NCBI RefSeq assembly: GCF_003971255.1
Contig: NZ_CP034660.1
Span: forward strand, 2,294,001-2,358,000
Reading direction: 5' to 3'
Length of the DNA: 64,000 nt
Source of the DNA: Colwellia sp. Arc7-635
Lineage (GTDB): Bacteria; Pseudomonadota; Gammaproteobacteria; Enterobacterales; Alteromonadaceae
The first letter of the stretch is position 1. Each line of letters begins with the position of its first letter. The position numbers and the translations under genes are program-made. This document shows positions 2,473 to 38,881 of the stretch, one piece after another. The notes under the pieces are model-generated. The model was not told the origin of the DNA. It searched no databases and saw nothing but the letters and a program-made list of their open reading frames with translations.

Positions 2473-3213
2473 TTATGGTTGCGGTTGATCATGCTCTGCG
2501 ATAATTTTTTTCATTTCAGTGCCCGACAACAATAAAAACAGCACGGCAGAAAGTATTGATGAAGCAAAAATCATACACATCACAATCACTTGATAGCGGG
2601 CAGCAATTAAAGGCGAAACGCCTGAGAGTATTTGTCCTGTCATCATGCCGGGTAATGACACCAAACCGACAGCAAATAAAGAATTAATCACCGGTATAGT
2701 GGCAGCATTAAGCGCCATTTTTCGTGCTAATGGATAGGGCGTTTTATTGTTAATCTCAGCAAATATACGCTCTGCAGATAAACTAATGCTGTTCATCGCG
2801 GTCGCAAATATCATACCTGCCAATGGAATAATAACTTGTGGTTGGTACCAAGGTGTAACAGACATGGCCCCTTGGCTGATCACCAATAAAGTGAAACCGC
2901 CACCACCTAAGGTCGCGATAAAACCATACTTGAACAGCACTAAACGATATTGAGGTAAAGTACGTAATGCTATCCAACATGACATAGCGATCATGGCTAA
3001 GAGAATACAGCTGATTAACCAAACGTTGTCAGAATAAAAAATATAACTGAGCACGTAACCAATGAGTAATAGCTGAATCAACATGCGCGATAATGCATAG
3101 CCTGCTTGTTTTACATTTAACGACCATAGATATAAAAATCCAAGTGCGATGATCACCGGAATAAAAGCAATAGAAAGATCAGTTAAACTGATAACGGGCA
3201 GGGTATTGTTCAT
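2473..3213 (-). CDS. fetB: FetB-type (UPF0014) membrane permease, without its ATPase
   Basis: Polytopic inner-membrane protein of 246 residues with about seven hydrophobic segments. It matches the UPF0014/FetB family, whose E. coli member works with the ATPase FetA in iron export and oxidative-stress resistance. Family features seen are the ARKMALNAATIPVINSL stretch followed by VGLVSLPGMMTGQILSG. In E. coli fetA and fetB are adjacent; here the flanks are a chemoreceptor gene on one side and 525 noncoding bases on the other, so no FetA partner is present locally. Family assignment is firm; iron as substrate is by homology only. Confidence 0.85.
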   Translation of the reverse strand: MNNTLPVISLTDLSIAFIPVIIALGFLYLWSLNVKQAGYALSRMLIQLLLIGYVLSYIFYSDNVWLISCILLAMIAMSCWIALRTLPQYRLVLFKYGFIATLGGGGFTLLVISQGAMSVTPWYQPQVIIPLAGMIFATAMNSISLSAERIFAEINNKTPYPLARKMALNAATIPVINSLFAVGLVSLPGMMTGQILSGVSPLIAARYQVIVMCMIFASSILSAVLFLLLSGTEMKKIIAEHDQPQP

Positions 3214-3738
3214 AAGTTTTGTTAATAATCATGCGATAGTGTCATTTAGATGTAGCCATTATTTATTATTTTTGTCGATGGGTATACCTCATTAAACAGT
3301 GAATATAGCTATTGGTTTAATATTCTCGCGCTGTTGTTCGGTTGTTTTACTTATATTTGGTGTTTAGATTCACTTTTACTGCCTTTTCGAGCCTGCATAG
3401 TGTAAAACTGTCTGATAAAATCAGTTCAGTCGTTTATTAGGCATAGGGTAGAATCGATATAGCATAGCGCAAACTGTGTAAGCTTTATTAACATCGAATT
3501 TAACACCAAAATTGGCATCGAATTTATCTATACCAAAAATTACTAAACCAGTATTAGACAGTATTAGACAGTATTAGGCGGCATTAGAGTTTTTCATGGT
3601 GTAATAAAACCATGAAAAAATCTGAACGCTATTAAAAATGACAACTAGCGACAACTATTGATGGATAACAATTGATGAATAACAATTAATAAATAGCAAT
3701 AACTAGCAGGCTATAACCATTAACAACAAGGATATTTA
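3214..3738. other. Noncoding gap with short tandem repeats
   Basis: 525 bases between divergent fetB and the HupE-like gene. No convincing reading frame. It contains a near-tandem decamer (AGTATTAGAC and variants, about 3551-3585), a hairpin at 3590-3619, and a string of ACAATTGATGAATA-like near repeats leading up to the next start codon. Confidence 0.6.
3590..3619 (+). terminator. Bidirectional hairpin, possible end of an untranslated transcript
   Basis: TTTTTCATGGT and its exact complement (11-bp arms, 8-nt loop) with flanking T and A runs, typical of a terminator. No gene lies within 370 bases upstream on the plus strand, so it is either an orphan or ends a small RNA starting near the fetB promoter. 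Confidence 0.5.
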
Positions 3739-10625: not shown

Positions 10626-11551
10626 GTGGATTCATCATTCTATTACTACAGCCTATATGATTTAGCATGGTATTTAGTACCGTTTATTATATTTATTTAC
10701 ATCTTAAATTCTTCATGGTTAAAGAGTGTTATAGGAGATAAGAAAGCTAATCAATTAAATAAGATCAAAACACCATTGGTTGTTGCGTTGGTTTGTTGTG
10801 CTGCTTATTTGTTTTTAAGAGATGATGAACTAAACCCTGAAATTGTTACGTTATTAGAAGAGTATTCAAGTAAAATATCAAAAAACAACAATGGTAGCGT
10901 TTATCACATGGGGATGTGGTCAAGCTTAGAGTCATCGCCTTATGAAGTTGGGTTATGGCGGATCGAGCAGTATGAAAAGTCTCTATCTAATACTGAGCTG
11001 CCATCAACTTCTGTTGAATTTGACGATTACCCAGAGGAAAACTGGATAGAAGAAATATTCCCGAAGATGAAAAACCTAAATGGCTATGTGATTATGATGA
11101 AATTGGTTGTTTAGAATCAATATATAACCAGTCAGAGCAAGCAATATTTCTTGGTGATGCTTTCGCAAAGCACATAGAAAGGTATAACGGAGTATTCAAC
11201 TATACAGATTTTGGCTTATACCAACAGCCGTCTATATATGGACCAATGATGATGTTCGGTCCTGGTATTGATGTATTAAAAATCAAGCTTATATTAAACC
11301 TGCATAATTTCAAATTTGGCAAAAGGGAAGCCGTTGTTGAAGAATTAATTCAATTACTAAATCATCATAAGTCTGTACTAGGACAAACGCCTTATACAGT
11401 TTCTAAAGTAGTTAGTGTTGTTGAATTACAGCTTATATATAAAGCCTCAGCCTTTTTGATATCCAAAAAAAATGATGAGCACTTATCAATATGGAAACCT
11501 TATATTGATTTAATTAACAGGGACACTCACTCTAGATTACATACAATTTAA
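10626..11551 (+). pseudogene. Membrane-anchored protein of unknown function, frameshifted and 3'-truncated
   Basis: Begins with GTG directly after the endopeptidase stop, implying translational coupling. Two membrane segments (YDLAWYLVPFIIFIYIL and TPLVVALVCCAAYLFL) precede a soluble domain. The frame ends at 11114, but a shift at about 11060, again CCC where CCCC would be needed, joins it to a frame running PEDEKPKWLCDYDEIGCLES on to 11551, about 308 codons in all. The last residues (NRDTHSRLHTI) come from the inserted REP-like repeat, so the true 3' end is missing. Family not recognised. A membrane protein coupled to a secreted wall hydrolase could be an immunity protein, but that is conjecture. 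Confidence 0.55.
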
Positions 11552-11562
11552 AGTGAGTGTCC
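11513..11562. repeat. REP-like palindromic repeat, left end of the integron block
   Basis: ATTAACAGGGACACTCACTC begins a palindrome whose arms (11521-11538 and 11545-11562) both carry GGACACTCACT and its complement. Upstream it is fused in frame to the preceding gene; downstream it abuts the broken 3' end of the integrase remnant. A second copy of the same motif lies at 17974-18000, at the other end of the block. It resembles the REP-type palindromes dispersed by RAYT transposases, but no such gene is present here. Confidence 0.65.
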
Positions 11563-11571
11563 TTTTAACTC

Positions 11572-11661
11572 TCAATATAAATAAGTTTCAATAGTGCGTT
11601 TAGCATATCGGCGAGTGATCATAAATTCATTTATTCTATTTAAGAATAAAGATTTAGACAT
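11572..11661 (-). pseudogene. intI: Remnant of an integron integrase (IntI N-terminus)
   Basis: Reading leftwards from the ATG at 11661, 29 codons encode MSKSLFLNRINEFMITRRYA then KRTIETYLY and a stop. This matches the start of the N-terminal SAM-like core-binding domain of chromosomal IntI integrases (Vibrio/Shewanella type, which continue with W and a basic region). An AGG ribosome site precedes it, and it points away from the cassette array, as intI genes do. The gene is cut off by the REP-like repeat at 11513-11562; the whole catalytic domain (RHRY residues) is gone. Frame, orientation, position next to the first cassette and the LexA box upstream all support the call. Confidence 0.85.
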
Positions 11662-11669
11662 AAAAATAC

Positions 11670-11685
11670 CTGTTATTATATACAG
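11670..11685 (-). promoter_or_regulatory. LexA (SOS) box in the integrase promoter
   Basis: On the minus strand it reads CTGTATATAATAACAG, an exact CTG-N10-CAG with the AT-rich centre of the gammaproteobacterial LexA consensus. It ends 8 bases before the intI ATG and overlaps TATAAT. SOS control of integron integrases through such a box is established for class 1 and Vibrio integrons. Here the control site outlived the gene it controlled. Confidence 0.85.
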
Positions 11686-11853
11686 TTCAGTCGAAATTAT
11701 AAATGTGTCCTTGCTAGACGGAATAATTCCGTAATGCACGCAATGTTAAAATTAATAAAATATTATTAAAGCCTTTGATTTTTATGATGAAAGGGAGTAC
11801 TTTAATAATAATTAAAAAGCATAATAGACGGAATAATTCCGTCTATTATGCTG
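11686..11853 (+). other. Putative attI region and leader of the cassette array
   Basis: 168 bases between the intI promoter and the first cassette junction (G at 11853, followed by TTAGGC). This is where attI and a cassette promoter would lie. It contains an identical 18-mer at 11715-11732 and 11825-11842 (TAGACGGAATAATTCCGT), the second inside a long palindrome. The cassette promoter was not identified with confidence; TTTAATAAT near 11801 could be a -10-like element. Confidence 0.6.
11818..11852. repeat. Perfect 17-bp-arm palindrome touching the cassette junction
   Basis: AGCATAATAGACGGAAT, one central A, then its exact complement. It ends one base before the G of the first recombination junction GTTAGGC. 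An 18-bp part is repeated at 11715-11732. Such a hairpin next to the recombination point could mimic a folded attC or act as a terminator or leader structure; neither is shown. Confidence 0.85.
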
Positions 11854-11875
11854 TTAGGCGTCTTAAGGACTATCG

Positions 11876-12337
11876 ATGTCAATTCAAAGTATTCAAGTTG
11901 AAAGAGGTATAAGCTTGCCTCAGGAATATCTGAAATTACTTACATCTCTGCATGAGGCTGATGAATACTGTTTCAATGAATATCCTGAAGAAGATCCCGA
12001 TTTTGAAGGTCGTTGTTGGTGTTTCCTAAATGAGGATGATCTCATCGAAGAAATTGACATGAGAGGCGTAGGGAAATCCGCTGTTCATAAGCAACTTGAG
12101 TTATATATCAAATGTTTCAGTGAATTTAGTGATAGTCAGTTTCTAACTTCCCCTGATGGACAAACCCCAATTCAAAGAGTCCTTAATGGTTTTGTTGTAG
12201 CTGAAGACAATGGAGATCTATTATATTTAGATCCACTTGATGACTTTTCTGTTTGGATATTCCATCATGACGGCAGTGATGTAATGAAAGTTACAGGATC
12301 AATCGGTGAATGGCTGTCTCGTGCAGTCGTCGCCTAA
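11876..12337 (+). CDS. Cassette 1: SMI1/KNR4 (SUKH)-like protein
   Basis: 153 residues, acidic, no signal peptide. The N-terminal helix (GISLPQEYLKLLTSLHEADE) and the late segment VWIFHHDGSDVMKVTGSIGE followed by W fit the SMI1/KNR4 or SUKH fold. Bacterial members are mostly immunity proteins against polymorphic toxins; a few act in other roles. The start ATG lies 22 bases after the junction and the stop overlaps the R'' box of attC1, the usual tight packing of integron cassettes. No toxin partner is encoded in the cassette, consistent with an orphan immunity or defence cargo gene. Family call moderate, function inferred. Confidence 0.65.
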   Translation: MSIQSIQVERGISLPQEYLKLLTSLHEADEYCFNEYPEEDPDFEGRCWCFLNEDDLIEEIDMRGVGKSAVHKQLELYIKCFSEFSDSQFLTSPDGQTPIQRVLNGFVVAEDNGDLLYLDPLDDFSVWIFHHDGSDVMKVTGSIGEWLSRAVVA

Positions 12338-12429
12338 CAAGCTAATAAATAAGGACAAAAAACAGTTGGCTGTTTTCGTTCCTCAACATTTTAGCCAACA
12401 ATTTTTTGCCCATTATTAGGGCGTTATGT
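12332..12429 (+). other. attC site 1
   Basis: R'' box GCCTAAC (12332) and R' box GTTATGT (12423). In between are complementary arms GGACAAAAAACAGTTGGCT and AGCCAACAATTTTTTGCC around a CCTCAACATTTT-containing loop. 98 bp. GCCTAAC complements TTAGGC at the start of cassette 1. Confidence 0.9.
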
Positions 12430-12443
12430 GATCTGGAGTGTCC

Positions 12444-13025
12444 ATGGACGAATTGAGCCCGTTTATTTCTTTTACGGAGAAAGCCGACAAATTAATAAAT
12501 AGTACTTTTTCAAAGGAGATGATTGGAAAAACTGGCGTATATCTGACGTGGGAAGAAAATATACAAAAAGTAGTTCATATAAGTCCAAATGAAGAGTTTA
12601 TTGATGCTTTCGTTTTAACCTTTAGATTTTTCATTCAGAATAACGATTCAATCTCTATCAAAAACATGTCCGCTAACTTTAACTCTGGAATAGTGAATAA
12701 GGACATTAAAAAGAAATTTATTGATGTAAAAACAAAGCTTAACGATTACTTGGATACTGATACTATGTTTGATATTGGTGGCGTAATTTCGAGACGAAAT
12801 ATTCTTGAAATTTTTGTTTATGGGGAACTTTCACATATGAATCCCTCTAAAAAAGAGATCTACGATACATGGATGAAAAATGAGTTTATGGCTCCTTTAT
12901 TGCAGTTTGAGTTTAAACTAGTTTTACACAATGCTCTAAAATTTATTAAATATGTCAGTGATCTTTCAACGCAGGTAGTTCTTAATGCGCAAAAATCACA
13001 TAACAAGCCAATCAAGCAGGATTAA
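12444..13025 (+). CDS. Cassette 2: hypothetical cytoplasmic protein
   Basis: About 193 residues from the ATG at 12444; a GTG two codons earlier (12438) is also possible. No signal peptide or membrane span. Mixed alpha/beta with Lys/Asn-rich helices (KKFIDVKTKLNDYLDTD) and a C-terminal helical part (FEFKLVLHNALKFIKYVSD). The reading frame runs through the R'' box into attC2 before stopping, as cassette genes often do. No family recognised. Other candidates: a nuclease-associated or immunity-type cargo protein. Confidence 0.75.
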   Translation: MDELSPFISFTEKADKLINSTFSKEMIGKTGVYLTWEENIQKVVHISPNEEFIDAFVLTFRFFIQNNDSISIKNMSANFNSGIVNKDIKKKFIDVKTKLNDYLDTDTMFDIGGVISRRNILEIFVYGELSHMNPSKKEIYDTWMKNEFMAPLLQFEFKLVLHNALKFIKYVSDLSTQVVLNAQKSHNKPIKQD

Positions 13026-13094
13026 AAACAGTTTGCTGTTTCGTTCCTCAACATTTTAGCAAACAATTTTTAGCCCCTTATTGGGGCGTTAGGT
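12998..13094 (+). other. attC site 2
   Basis: R'' ACATAAC (12998), R' GTTAGGT (13088). Arms TAAAAACAGTTTGCT / AGCAAACAATTTTTAG. ACATAAC is the exact complement of the start of cassette 2 (GTTATGT), which authenticates the cassette. Confidence 0.9.
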
Positions 13095-13773: not shown

Positions 13774-13776
13774 TTC

Positions 13777-13877
13777 ACCTAACAAGTTGTTAAACAAGGA
13801 CAAAAAACAGTTGGTTTTTACTCCTTCGTCGCTAATTTTAACCAACTATTTTTTGCCTGTTAACAGGGCGTTAGCTA
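13777..13877 (+). other. attC site 3
   Basis: R'' ACCTAAC (13777), R' GTTAGCT (13871). Arms GGACAAAAAACAGTTGGTT / AACCAACTATTTTTTGCC with the loop CTCCTTCGTCGCTAATTTT. R'' complements the start of cassette 3 (TTAGGT). Confidence 0.9.
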
Positions 13878-13943
13878 TCAGTGTTACCCATAATTAGTGG
13901 ACACCTTCTATAGTTAGATTTATATCTAGCATTGAGGTGATAC

Positions 13944-14252
13944 ATGACTAAGAAACAAACCCAAGCTTATACCGAAGAATTCCGAAAAGAAGCGGTTCGA
14001 CGAGCCGAACAAAAAGGTAATACCGCTGCCTCAGTTGGTAGAGAGTTAGGTATCAGTGCTCAACAAATCTATAACTGGCGTCGCCAGTTCAATCGCCTTT
14101 CAGATAAACAATTCAACTCACTTCAGGGCGTCGATTACTCTAAAAAAGAGTCTGAAGAAATGCGTAAATTAAAGCGTAAGGTGCATAATCTAGAGGAAGA
14201 GAACGAGTTTCTAAAAAAGGCTACTGCGTACTTTGCGAAGCACCAAGAGTAA
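13944..14252 (+). CDS. IS3-family transposase OrfA
   Basis: 102 residues: helix-turn-helix of the HTH_Tnp_1 type (TEEFRKEAVRRAEQ..ASVGRELGISAQQIYNWRRQF) followed by a leucine-zipper coiled coil (KLKRKVHNLEEENEFLKKA). It binds the IS ends and, when fused to OrfB by frameshift, forms active transposase. ATG start with GAGGTG upstream. The slippery site is at codons encoding LKKA. Confidence 0.93.
   Translation: MTKKQTQAYTEEFRKEAVRRAEQKGNTAASVGRELGISAQQIYNWRRQFNRLSDKQFNSLQGVDYSKKESEEMRKLKRKVHNLEEENEFLKKATAYFAKHQE
14213..14219 (+). promoter_or_regulatory. Slippery heptamer A AAA AAG for -1 frameshifting
   Basis: Codon phase is CTA AAA AAG in orfA. Slippage by -1 enters the orfB frame, which is open across this point and up to 14261. 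This is the usual IS3-family arrangement for making the OrfAB transposase. Confidence 0.8.
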
Positions 14253-14260
14253 AGTACGCC

Positions 14261-15106
14261 TTGATTAATGAATTCAAACAACGCTTTACTGTGGTGTTGA
14301 TGTGCCGTGCATTGAAGGTTTCACGCTCAGGTTTTTATCGTTGGTTAAGCAGCCCGGATAGCCGCTGGAAGTTAAAACGTCGATTGATAACAGCCAATGT
14401 GCTTGATGTGTATGGTACGTTTAAAGCGCGTTATGGAGCTCCACGTATCACTAAAGAGCTCGTGGCTTTAGGTATTAATTGCTCAAAAAACTATGTTGCC
14501 AATATTATGCACAGCGAAGGAATACGGGCACGTAATGGTAAAGCGTTTAAGTACAGTCGCCATAGTCCAGCGATGATTAACGTAGCGAGGAATGTATTAA
14601 AGCGCCAGTTCGCTGTAGATAAACCTAATCAAAAGTGGGTGACGGATATCACTTATATTTGGGTGAAAGACAAATGGCTGTACTTGGCCACAGTTATGGA
14701 CTTGTACTCTCGCAGTATCATAGGTTGGTCGTTGGACTTAACGATGACCGAGCAATTGATTACAGATGCACTGAACATGGCCTTTGTTCGTCGGGAGATA
14801 GCACCAGGATTAATTATTCATTCAGATAGAGGCGTACAGTATCGTGCGATTAAGTATCAAGACTTAATCCGTAGTAAAGGTGGTGTAGTGAGTATGAGCC
14901 GACGTGGTAATTGTTGGGATAACGCGGTGATGGAATCTTTCTATAGTCGTTTGAAAGTAGAGCTAATTTACGCAGAGCAATACCGCTCGATTGAAGAAGC
15001 AAGATCGGGTATATTTGAATATATTGAGGTTTTTTATAACCGTTTACGTAGGCATTCAGCCTTGGGCTATGTGAGTCCTGCTGAATTTGAGCGCATTGGC
15101 GCATAA
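14261..15106 (+). CDS. IS3-family transposase OrfB (DDE integrase domain)
   Basis: 281 residues with the retroviral-integrase-type catalytic core: D in WVTDITYIWV, D in IIHSDRGVQY and E in WDNAVMESFYSRLK (DDE with the usual IS3 spacing), preceded by a helix-turn-helix-like N-terminal part (HTH_21). Starts at TTG in the -1 frame relative to orfA and is normally made as an OrfAB fusion. Complete, so the element may still move. Confidence 0.95.
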   Translation: MINEFKQRFTVVLMCRALKVSRSGFYRWLSSPDSRWKLKRRLITANVLDVYGTFKARYGAPRITKELVALGINCSKNYVANIMHSEGIRARNGKAFKYSRHSPAMINVARNVLKRQFAVDKPNQKWVTDITYIWVKDKWLYLATVMDLYSRSIIGWSLDLTMTEQLITDALNMAFVRREIAPGLIIHSDRGVQYRAIKYQDLIRSKGGVVSMSRRGNCWDNAVMESFYSRLKVELIYAEQYRSIEEARSGIFEYIEVFYNRLRRHSALGYVSPAEFERIGA

Positions 15107-15162
15107 CCAGTGTCTACTTTTTATGGGTAACACCAGTTTTCACTGAGCTTGGATGCAAATTT

Positions 15163-15447
15163 ATGAATGAAGATGAATTAAAAAAATATGAAGAGTATTT
15201 GTTAATTCAAAAAGAATGGGAAATGGATCGTTTTAATACCTTATTAAAAATTACCCCTCCATTGCCACCGTGGATCGCATATCCTGATATTGAGCCATCT
15301 GATATGTTTTTTAGAATGGGTGACGGTGAAAGCTTAATTACTGATATACATATCTATTTGAAATATACTTCGGAAAACGAAAGGCTTCAGTATTTAAATA
15401 GATATAAAGAACCAACAGATTGGTTTGGGTTATATCCAAAAACCTAA
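15163..15447 (+). CDS. Cassette 4: small hypothetical protein
   Basis: 94 residues, highly charged N-terminal helix (EDELKKYEEYLLIQKEWEMD) followed by a Pro/aromatic-rich part (PPLPPWIAYPDIEPSDMFF) and DWFGLYPKT at the end. No signal or membrane segment, no recognised family. The IS at 13883-15132 separates it from the junction at 13871 and from any leader. The stop codon overlaps the R'' box of attC4. Confidence 0.65.
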   Translation: MNEDELKKYEEYLLIQKEWEMDRFNTLLKITPPLPPWIAYPDIEPSDMFFRMGDGESLITDIHIYLKYTSENERLQYLNRYKEPTDWFGLYPKT

Positions 15448-15538
15448 CCAGTAAATCAACAGGACTAAAAACAGCTGGTTTTGCTCCTTCGTCGCTATTA
15501 TAACCAGCTATTTTTAGCCCGTTATTTGGGTGTTAGGT
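15442..15538 (+). other. attC site 4
   Basis: R'' ACCTAAC (15442), R' GTTAGGT (15532). Arms GGACTAAAAACAGCTGGTT / AACCAGCTATTTTTAGCCC, loop CTCCTTCGTCGCTATTA. Unlike most others its R'' does not exactly complement the start of its cassette (TTAGCT at 13872; one mismatch), hinting that the 5' end of cassette 4 was exchanged or mutated. Confidence 0.88.
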
Positions 15539-15542
15539 GATT

Positions 15543-15962
15543 ATGTCGGCATTTAATGCGCTGAAAGTTTTGATTCTATTTATAGTTTGCCTAGTGTTCG
15601 ATCAACTGATTATGATTTATGGGTATGCAACCTATTTGCCTCAATTTGGTTCAGATGTTAACGCGGAATACATTCGTACTATGTGGTTTCATTTTTCTAT
15701 TTTGGGCATAGCATGTGCTTTACTTACATTTTTCTTATCAAAAGCTTTTCTATTGTCATTTAAAGTATCACTGATAATATTTATACTCTCTGGAATAGTG
15801 TTTAACTTATATACTCCGGAAGGGAACCAATGGCATTGGAATAATGGTTTTATAGATCTTTCTTTTCTATATATGTTGTTTGGTTTACTTGTTTTGTTTG
15901 TACTAAATTATACAAAAAGTTCGGTGCAAAAATCACCTAACAAGAAAATCAACAAGGACTAA
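15543..15962 (+). CDS. Cassette 5: small integral membrane protein
   Basis: About 139 residues from the ATG at 15543 (a GTG in frame at 15537 sits on the junction). Four hydrophobic spans: about residues 6-27, 46-66, 73-91 and 106-125, with short loops and a Lys-rich C-terminus that reads into attC5. Topology resembles small DUF-type four-helix membrane proteins; no family named. Cassette-borne membrane proteins can be phage-defence or export proteins, but nothing here decides that. Confidence 0.7.
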   Translation: MSAFNALKVLILFIVCLVFDQLIMIYGYATYLPQFGSDVNAEYIRTMWFHFSILGIACALLTFFLSKAFLLSFKVSLIIFILSGIVFNLYTPEGNQWHWNNGFIDLSFLYMLFGLLVLFVLNYTKSSVQKSPNKKINKD

Positions 15963-16030
15963 AAACAGCGGGCTGTTCGCTTCGCTCCATTTTAGCCCAC
16001 TATTTTTAGCCTGTTATTTGGGCGTTAGGC
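15935..16030 (+). other. attC site 5
   Basis: R'' ACCTAAC (15935), R' GTTAGGC (16024). Arms GGACTAAAAACAGCGGGCT / AGCCCACTATTTTTAGCC. R'' complements the start of cassette 5 (TTAGGT). Confidence 0.9.
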
Positions 16031-16042
16031 CTCAAGGATAGT

Positions 16043-16540
16043 ATGCTGACTCCTGCTCAAAAATTAGAAACAATTAAAGCTTTCGGTTTGATTGCAATGA
16101 CAGTCGGTGGTGGTGAACTTAAAGTCAATTGGGCTATGAGTTTACTTGAACAGGGGATCGAAACCGAAAACCTTTGTGTTTTAGCGTCTTTGTTAAACCC
16201 ACTAAATGAATTTGAAGTTGATGAGTATTTTAATATTGTAATATCGGAGTTGGATCTAAAAGCTCCAAACTCTGAAGAAGCTGTTGAGGGTTACGCTAAA
16301 ATTTTAGCCCATGAAGTTATTAGAGGTATTATTTCTCCAGAAATCGGAGCTTCAAAAATATATGATGCTAATGTGTTTTTAGATTACCCCGAATCATTTG
16401 CAGAATATACTATCTATGAAGACGAATGGTATTGTGAACATATTAATGGTTGGTCTAAAGAAAAAAGGCGGGAAGAGATAATTAAAGCTTGTAAAGTTTC
16501 ATATGGCTTGCTCGAATACCCTAGTCTAAATAAGGCCTAA
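16043..16540 (+). CDS. Cassette 6: hypothetical protein
   Basis: 165 residues, acidic, no signal or membrane segment. The helical N-terminal part (MLTPAQKLETIKAFGLIAMT..WAMSLLEQGIETENL..LASLL) looks like the degradation- or immunity-type helical repeats seen in orphan cargo genes. The C-terminal part is rich in aromatic residues (EDEWYCEHINGWSKEKRREE). ATG 19 bases after the junction; the stop overlaps the R'' of attC6. No family identified. Confidence 0.72.
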   Translation: MLTPAQKLETIKAFGLIAMTVGGGELKVNWAMSLLEQGIETENLCVLASLLNPLNEFEVDEYFNIVISELDLKAPNSEEAVEGYAKILAHEVIRGIISPEIGASKIYDANVFLDYPESFAEYTIYEDEWYCEHINGWSKEKRREEIIKACKVSYGLLEYPSLNKA

Positions 16541-16636
16541 CAAGGGTTTTCAAGTCGGACAAATTACAGTTGGCTTTTTGTTCGTGCCTCACTTATTTTA
16601 GCCAACTGCAATTTGCCGCTTAAAACGGCGTTATTT
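16535..16636 (+). other. attC site 6
   Basis: R'' GCCTAAC (16535), R' GTTATTT (16630). Arms GGACAAATTACAGTTGGCT / AGCCAACTGCAATTTGCC. R'' complements TTAGGC at the start of cassette 6. Confidence 0.88.
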
Positions 16637-17017
16637 GGCACCACGAAATCAAGTTAAACTTTATTTGTAAAAGCGGTGTTTTAATATTGGTTTGGTGTGT
16701 GGTTCAAAAGTTTTCGCCTAAGCGGTTTGGTTATTACCGCTAATAGGCTTTACTATTTTTAAGACAATATTGCTGTAAAGCCATTAGCTAAATATCCTTT
16801 AGTGTTTGGCTCAAAGTTCAAGGTTAAGCTAGTCGTGGCGCTGGGCATTTTTTGCTTCTACAGTCGGGCCGCCAATACTACAAAAGTACTTGTTATCGTT
16901 AGTGTTCTCACGCTACCATCAACTAACAAGGTAATTCAATCTGACAAAAATAGCTTGTCTCGTTTTTTGCAAAAGGCGCAAAAACCAATCCAACTATTTT
17001 TGCAGTTTAATTAAGCG
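16631..17017 (+). other. Cassette 7: apparently gene-less cassette
   Basis: 387 bp between attC6 and attC7 junctions. The only frame of any length on the plus strand (16802-17014) runs through the attC and has no credible start; the minus strand offers nothing longer than about 15 codons from an ATG. The internal GTGGCGCTGGGCATTTTTTG recalls the noncoding tracts of Vibrio superintegron cassettes. It may carry a promoter, a small RNA or nothing. The ends match less well than in other cassettes (start TTATTT against R'' AACTAAC). Confidence 0.6.
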
Positions 17018-17023
17018 TTATGT
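16921..17023 (+). other. attC site 7
   Basis: R'' AACTAAC (16921), R' GTTATGT (17017). Arms CTGACAAAAATAGCTTG / CCAACTATTTTTGCAG. More diverged in sequence than the other attC sites but with the same fold. Confidence 0.82.
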
Positions 17024-17764: not shown

Positions 17765-17977
17765 TGATCTTCCCCCGATAAAACGGACACCAAAATCTAA
17801 CTAAAGATGAGGTGTTCTATGCCAAAGTACAACAATCCAAGACGAACTTGGAAGTATTCAAACGAATTTAAAGTCAACGCTATTCAATTAAGTTTTGCTG
17901 TTGGTATCACCATAAAATCAGTCGCTGAAAAACTCGACATTCACCCGTTTATGCTGTCACGATGGCGAAAAGAATTA
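17765..17977 (+). mobile_element. 5' fragment of a second IS3-type element
   Basis: Begins with an IS-like terminus (TGATCTTCCCCCGATAAAAC GGACACC) and the start of an OrfA-type transposase, and is cut at about 17975 by the REP-like repeat. It is a different element from the complete IS at 13883: protein sequence and ends both differ. Confidence 0.75.
17819..17977 (+). pseudogene. Transposase OrfA fragment
   Basis: From the ATG at 17819: MPKYNNPRRTWKYSNEFKVN then a helix-turn-helix (VAEKLDIHPFMLSRWRKE). The frame then runs by chance into the repeat (TGTPTLN, stop at 18001). Only the DNA-binding half of OrfA survives and no OrfB follows. Confidence 0.8.
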
Positions 17978-18000
17978 ACAGGGACACCCACTCTAAATTG
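17974..18000. repeat. REP-like repeat, right end of the integron block
   Basis: ATTAACAGGGACACCCACTC TAAATTG, nearly identical to the arm at 11513-11538. The 54 bases after it hold no gene; the YecM-like gene ends at 18055. Confidence 0.65.
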
Positions 18001-18054
18001 AATATTTTTATATGGCCAGCCACGCTTAATCGCATGTGTTCTCGACTATTTTAC

Positions 18055-37990: not shown

Positions 37991-38050
37991 TGCAGGGGGA
38001 TATTTTCTTCATTTATAAGCGGCTAGGACAGGGTATAAATATCTGTAATA

Positions 38051-38079
38051 CCCGCAAATGAATTAAAATAGTTTGCGGG
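38051..38079. terminator. Hairpin between convergent genes
   Basis: CCCGCAAA/TTTGCGGG, 8-bp perfect arms with a 13-nt AT loop, between the radical SAM gene and the convergent lipoprotein gene. Poor T-run. Confidence 0.5.
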
Positions 38080-38104
38080 AATGTTGATAAACGAAAACAG
38101 CAAA

Positions 38105-38881
38105 CTATTTTTTACTCTGACTAAGCCTCTTATTCAGCAGATTTTCGTCAAACTTTATTTCCATATTTTTCATTAAATCATCCGTAAATTTTTGACTCTC
38201 TTCTTTACTAACATAACTATTTTTGCCTTGAATATTAGCAACTAGTTGGTTTGTAATTTCTCCGTAAACGTCTTCTAACCGCGTCTGTAATGCAACAAGT
38301 TGGTCAGTCGTCATTGCATTATGCAGTTTAAAGGGTTTATTTTTACTCATAGGTCCATAGTTTCCCTCCCAAAGCGCTTTACCCGCTTCAGACCTTAGCG
38401 TTGCTTTAAGCTGAGGGAGAAATAGTAAACCTTGTTCATTAGTAAAAATAATACACCAAGGCTCAAGCGTTATAACTTGTTGTTTGATATTGGCATTTAA
38501 GTGAATAGATTCGACTTCTGTTTTTAAATCTTGATTATTATTGAGTGAGTTGAGTAAAGTTTTAGCTAAATCAAAATTGTCTTTAAGCTCAACTTCTAAA
38601 TTACCCTGTAAATTTTTTTCATTTGATAAATCAGACGCAATAACACCGATAATTCCGAGGTACAGACCTGCATCATCTGCAGACCAATTGCTGACAACAA
38701 AGCCTGTGTCTTTAATTCTTCGATCACCGACGGCTAAACTAAGATCGCTCCAATCGATGTTGAGTACATCCAACTTTAATGTTTTATTTGACTCAATAGG
38801 TATTGAGCCTCCCTTTTTCGTTGATTGACAACCAGCGGATAAAAAGAGCATGACGATGATAATAAAGTATTTTAAATACAC
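38105..38881 (-). CDS. Lipoprotein of unknown function
   Basis: 258 residues with a lipobox (IIVMLFLSAGC, Cys at residue 18). The mature part is a beta-rich domain with TLKLDVLNIDWSDLSLAVGD and a charged helical C-terminus (EESQKFTDDLMKNMEIKFD). Second gene of a probable two-gene operon with the lipoprotein gene at 38918. Family not recognised. Confidence 0.75.
   Translation of the reverse strand: MYLKYFIIIVMLFLSAGCQSTKKGGSIPIESNKTLKLDVLNIDWSDLSLAVGDRRIKDTGFVVSNWSADDAGLYLGIIGVIASDLSNEKNLQGNLEVELKDNFDLAKTLLNSLNNNQDLKTEVESIHLNANIKQQVITLEPWCIIFTNEQGLLFLPQLKATLRSEAGKALWEGNYGPMSKNKPFKLHNAMTTDQLVALQTRLEDVYGEITNQLVANIQGKNSYVSKEESQKFTDDLMKNMEIKFDENLLNKRLSQSKK

Follow-up and report, generated by a model that had tools for sequence, protein, structure and literature searches.

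An integron head with a truncated integrase gene and an exact LexA box in Colwellia sp. Arc7-635, one of about 18 attI-like heads probably served in trans by a single intact integrase

Results

The window, by which we mean the whole 64,000-nucleotide stretch of Colwellia sp. Arc7-635 DNA analyzed here, carries on its plus strand a cassette array with seven attC sites. The first cassette encodes a SUKH-1 protein (gene at 11876–12337) and is followed by attC 1 (12331–12428, 105.5 bits). Further along lie attC 2 (12997–13093, 99.7 bits), attC 3 (13776–13875), behind which an IS3-type element extends to about 15137, attC 4 (15441–15537, 92.9 bits), attC 5 (15934–16029, 93.7 bits), attC 6 (16534–16635), and a weaker attC 7 (16920–17022, 58 bits). 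The sixth cassette (16024–16543) is 98.8% identical to the first cassette at an attI elsewhere in the genome that lacks an integrase gene (intI), at locus L102, and attC 6 is 98% identical to one attC of the intact integron of the same genome (locus L005).

Several insertion elements border these arrays. The IS3-type element abuts an attC in five arrays (window 13796–15137, L057, L090, L091, and L097) at 96–99% identity, the L091 copy being partial, and this distribution suggests attC-directed insertion. Like the known IS1111-attC group, a 1.7-kb element encoding a 384-aa IS110/IS1111-type transposase (L086 3604–5314) sits at attC boundaries in seven arrays with 98–99% identity, the others being L090 (two copies), L096, L097, L098, L099, and L102. 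A truncated IS3 orfA at 17768–17980 of the window, whose left end reads GATCTTCCCCCGATAAAACGGACACC, interrupts the array's last attC at about 17768, and a single weak attC-like site (38044–38139, 31 bits) lies at a distance from the array.

The array starts at an attI-type head on the minus strand (11639–11856; 90.8 bits with model R2), comprising an attI core, a hairpin, and the intI promoter region. By alignment this head matches that of the intact integron and 12 others, with heads L057 (86%) and L058 (78%) as homologs, and the first-cassette junction lies at the expected attI point, predicted at about 11850–11856. The perfect 16-bp palindrome beside that point (11818–11852) has been shortened by a deletion relative to sister heads; one arm of the attI-side hairpin is lost, so that part of the hairpin present in L057 is missing.

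Behind the head, the minus strand of 11572–11661 holds 29 N-terminal codons of intI and a stop codon contributed by the junction sequence. Translation of 11661–11575 yields MSKSLFLNRINEFMITRRYAKRTIETYLY, followed by TGA at 11574–11572. In a search of 299 genomes of the family, the 29 residues aligned over their full length, at 83–86% identity, with the starts of long integron-integrase frames from other genera (in G218, G029, G076, and G110; E 1.5e-11 to 2.5e-10). Judged by these alignments, the resemblance to IntI is beyond chance, and the sequence-only reading, which had recognized an IntI N-terminus beside the first cassette and proposed translating 11661–11572 and searching it against IntI proteins, was correct on this point. 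It had also anticipated that integrase profile searches would overlook the stub: the N-terminal domain Pfam PF13495 scores it at 17.4 bits, under the cut-off of 27, and a TIGR02249 search of the whole genome returns the intact gene and three other tyrosine recombinases but not the window locus. The catalytic domain is absent, leaving no functional intI in cis, and a search for C-terminal intI pieces near the clusters of the genome found none except codons 45–69 in L057. With seven attC sites, where at least two are called for, and no complete intI adjoining them (29 codons, no TIGR02249 match), the locus classifies as a CALIN, an attC array without a neighboring complete intI.

Upstream of the remnant lies an exact LexA (SOS) box, CTGTATATAATAACAG (11670–11685, minus strand), at a position conserved in intI promoters of the family; it ends 8 nt ahead of the remnant ATG, just as the earlier reading had it. 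CTGTATATANNNACAG has a single match in the window, with 0.00 expected, whereas the looser CTGTN8ACAG occurs twice against 0.7 expected and is by itself unremarkable. In 25 of the 27 loci of relatives with a located intI start, a CTGTN8ACAG box begins 24–53 bp before intI, and the genome's own lexA has two such boxes upstream. The gap of 8 nt between box and ATG is unusually short compared with about 17–37 nt in relatives, and is 11 nt shorter than in sister head L057. A promoter-like site of the lost intI, TTTATA-17-TATAAT (11675–11703, minus strand), overlaps the box; promoter-like matches in the region are no more numerous than in shuffles, and the argument rests on the placement over the box. 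The combination that defines an SOS-type intI promoter, CTGTN8ACAG over a promoter in a host with a LexA of that specificity, is present at the sequence level, and from box and promoter together we infer that the window integron was probably SOS-inducible.

These features bear on two alternative accounts of the locus. The 29-codon frame has an intact start and stop codon, a LexA box, and a promoter-like site upstream, as a functional small protein would; but its stop derives from junction sequence, the 8-nt gap holds no clear ribosome-binding site, and the sister heads L057 and L058, with stops or other deletions, do not conserve the frame, making such a function scarcely credible. The second account, in which the intact IntI built the array by inserting cassettes off target (attG) and the remnant is there by coincidence, draws on the fact that CALINs can originate in this way (PMC8618304) and that four clusters of the genome (L088, L095, L099, and L101) have no recognized head. 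It is contradicted at the window locus, where the array is headed by an attI whose homology to other heads extends beyond 200 bp and which comes with a promoter, a LexA box, and the start of intI in register; we regard it as very improbable here, although it may hold for the headless clusters.

Every alignment to the intI genes of relatives stops at 11573, where a REP-like palindrome begins (TTAACAGGGACACTCACT...AGTGAGTGTCCTTTTAA; 11515–11572). This imperfect inverted repeat, of which the genome holds other copies, forms the junction between the truncated intI and a truncated gene to its left, the 54 bp between the two gene ends being the palindrome with TTAA at each end. The left neighbor (10626–11518, plus strand), convergent with the remnant, is a frameshifted and truncated homolog of a 471-aa gene of genome G006 (complete at L059 10309–11724), and the similarity, at 81% identity, stops at 11518. 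Since the intI alignments end at 11573 and the left-gene similarity ends at 11518, the 3' parts of both genes were removed by one event, or a series of events, ending at the repeat. The proposals that the frame stops at a REP-like repeat and that a rearrangement took away the catalytic part are both borne out by this arrangement of two convergent truncated genes.

The homolog of the left neighbor (window 10626–11551) has no Pfam match and is found within the genus only in G006. In the suggested comparison with sister loci, an intact intI at the same locus was sought across the genus; only G006 shared the left flank, and there the complete left gene gives way to 1.3 kb of different DNA and then an attC array, with neither an attI head nor an intI. 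The REP-like motif TTAACAGGGACACTCACTCTAAATT flanks the window array at both ends (11515–11572 and 17978–18005) and also clusters near several other arrays (L089, L097, and L100); REP-like motifs occur near the window, L089, L097, L098, L099, and L100 clusters but not near most clusters. The motif may mark deletion or transposition junctions, and REP elements might bound a mobile unit made up of head and array.

An intact intI lies 547 kb from the remnant on the same 4.74-Mb chromosome (C1:2853143–2854108, locus L005). It encodes 321 aa without stops, scores 448 bits against TIGR02249, and has its own LexA box, CTGTACAAACAAACAG, and its own array. The attCs of the window and of this integron belong to one family. 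Over its 29 residues, the remnant matches the intact IntI at only about 70% identity, and the two loci therefore stem from different IntI lineages; the idea that the window copy came from the intact integron by recent duplication was rejected, given that the same residues reach 83–86% in IntI of other genera.

With a covariance model built from 12 attCs and a threshold of 45 bits, the genome yields 90 attC-like sites, which fall into 19 clusters. For the heads, a sequence model spanning attI to the LexA box recovered 14 strong examples and a weaker one, L094. Three additional heads belong to another type without a LexA box or intI, characterized by TAACAGCTTATTATGGAGACTTCTCAGTAATGTCC and repeated TTACTGAGACTTCTCAGTAA palindromes, and precede arrays L093 (about 2780–3410), L096 (about 15250–15640), and L098 (about 2880–3250), the largest array of the genome among them. 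This brings the genome to about 18 attI-like heads, with a full intI only at L005; the others retain at most 29 codons of the intI start, except L057 with codons 45–69. Some heads occur in tandem: two stand 717 bp apart in L214 of G005 (1657 and 2374), and in L090 of the window's genome (6633 and 13631) an array lies within the 7 kb that separate the two.

The same state is common across the genus. Among 68 heads in 15 genomes, 13 have a full intI, 2 a large fragment, 8 a stub, and 45 none, meaning no intI detectable within 1,500 bp, so that 53 heads are intI-less or stubs; in G005, 13 heads were examined and 1 has an intI. Four heads of G016 (L241–L244), three with perfect LexA boxes, occur in a genome without an integron-integrase match at E 1e-8, and heads can thus persist in the absence of any integrase, for which this genome offers a natural control. 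Heads of this kind extend to other genera of the family, whose genomes often hold several.

Comparison of sister heads indicates use of intI-less heads after intI loss. L089 and its ortholog in another species (G014 L229) are 91% identical along 1,500 bp that take in the head and the intI-less flank, and G001 L224 and G014 L230 are 87% identical over 971 bp, with unrelated cassette sides in both pairs. The cassette sides are likewise unrelated among L090a, L090b, and L091, which are 95–97% alike in the head and the intI-less DNA, and between the members of the pairs L087/L102 and G005 L213/L215 (both 96%); the tandem pair in L214 also shares its intI-less DNA but not its cassette side. In these sister heads, the unrelated first cassettes are joined exactly at the attI point. 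Because the intI-less DNA beyond the box is shared, the common ancestor most likely already lacked intI, and because the cassette sides share nothing up to the attI point, first cassettes were inserted or excised after its loss, for which an integrase in trans is needed. We conclude from these alignments that several intI-less attI sites were used after intI loss, presumably by an integrase acting in trans. Cassettes also recur between arrays at 95–99.6% identity, the sixth cassette of the window among them. The heads compared include no sister with the window's junction, so that for the window head itself post-loss use is an extrapolation from the others.

Discussion

Our analysis of the window revealed an integron head whose intI is cut, in a genome with many such heads and one intact integrase gene. 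We propose the following model. A rearrangement cut the window's intI after codon 29, leaving a REP-like palindrome in place, and the attI, promoter region, and LexA box outlived the truncation. A single intact, SOS-controlled integrase most likely serves every attI and attC site in trans, so that intI-less heads would stay usable as landing pads and local intI copies would be dispensable. We put the probability that the window locus is one of about 18 heads served in trans by the single intact integrase at roughly three in four. The part played by this particular enzyme, and the continued usability of the window head, are deduced from the presence of an intact intI with similar attCs in the genome and from the post-loss exchange at other heads. 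The absence of part of the L057 hairpin from the window attI speaks against service in trans, and the fit of the intact IntI to this attI is uncertain given the different lineage of the remnant and its sequence identity of about 70%. Some of the cassette exchanges may also be the work of integrases that have since disappeared, and the heads of G016, where no integrase match is seen at E 1e-8, likewise count against the model.

The locus might instead be a plain relic, in which the integron died with the cut in intI, the attI, LexA box, and cassettes are merely uneroded, and nothing acts today. A simple deletion or rearrangement with a REP-like repeat at the junction, the shortened spacing between box and ATG, and the lost hairpin arm would fit this account, as would the full range of decay stages among sister heads (the boxes of L058 and L100 are broken). 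We nevertheless consider it unlikely, in view of the intact integrase with compatible attCs, the 98.8% copy of the window's sixth cassette at another attI, and the cassette changes at other intI-less heads after intI loss. The earlier description of a disabled integron holds for the window's own intI, but with a complete intI elsewhere in the genome the array is not necessarily disabled and could be served in trans.

Is the LexA box at intI-less heads kept by selection, with LexA gating the attI or transcription into or out of the array? Among the 53 intI-less or stub heads, 28 retain all eight core bases and 12 retain seven. The head model includes the box and is slightly biased toward boxed heads; strong heads score 90–144 bits, so that this bias cannot account for their box counts, although it may among weak hits. 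Full cores at 28 of 53 heads, and at three of the four heads of G016, with no integrase match at E 1e-8, would be expected under selection. Within the most numerous head type, with 21 heads of which 17 have no full intI, the core has undergone 0.25 changes per site compared with 2.0 in the spacer and 2.9–4.1 in the flanks (p 0.0009 across columns, p 0.20 for core versus spacer alone). Across all intI-less clades, however, the core (3.4 changes per site) is only slightly under the spacer (4.75) and the upstream flank (4.7), and exceeds the attI part (2.4). Type D heads have a degraded box in common, no box is present at L096, which heads the largest array, or at its two sisters, and SOS does not control the cassette promoter of V. 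cholerae even with the box about 125 bp off (PMC3948777). As the tests disagree between one head type and all heads, we make no claim of selection on the LexA core and hold such selection to be doubtful. On any role of the box without intI the evidence is divided, as one head type shows local conservation and other types have a decayed box or none. In our model, the box at the window would be mainly a passenger of the retained attI and promoter segment. A broader proposal, in which many pads share one SOS-induced integrase and LexA boxes at intI-less pads are selected since LexA gates their use or transcription, seems to us more doubtful still.

How does the locus relate to known systems? Like a CALIN, the window array lacks a neighboring complete intI. 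Deletion of intI is one proposed origin of CALINs (PMC8618304), and CALINs are mobilizable in trans (PMC12444791). The locus differs from known CALINs in keeping an attI, a promoter, a LexA box, and a readable intI stub, and in that its intI-less state recurs at most arrays of the genome. With sedentary chromosomal integrons it shares an attI, a cassette array with similar attCs, and a LexA-boxed intI promoter, but its intI is reduced to 29 codons and its genome holds many attI-headed arrays rather than one large array. Pseudogenes of intI are common, and they and pseudo-integrons (Nemergut 2008, PMC2426708; Xanthomonas) resemble the window locus in that an inactivated intI adjoins an array while the genome also encodes a functional intI from a different lineage. 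Those pseudogenes mostly carry frameshifts or stops and occur in one or two copies, whereas here nearly the whole gene is missing at most heads of the genus. An E. coli-like box in the intI promoter, as seen here, is known from LexA-controlled integrons (Cambray 2011, PMC3108266). In that survey, loss of LexA control correlated with intI inactivation (PMC3108266); here, by contrast, about half of the intI-less heads have kept the box beyond the loss of the gene. We view the window locus as a CALIN probably served in trans, in a genome with many attI heads and one integrase. Our literature search found no description of such a genome, which is no proof of absence.

Integron surveys detect their targets through intI profiles and attC models, while attI sites outside class 1 go unsearched, by IntegronFinder among others (PMC9024848), with the result that attI-headed arrays without an integrase are scored as orphan clusters. 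If one integrase maintains many pads, loss of intI need not kill an array, and marine gammaproteobacteria would have far more integron sites open to use, and far more expression positions, than is now believed. The retained LexA boxes allow a direct test of whether SOS control extends to the array, beyond the integrase alone.
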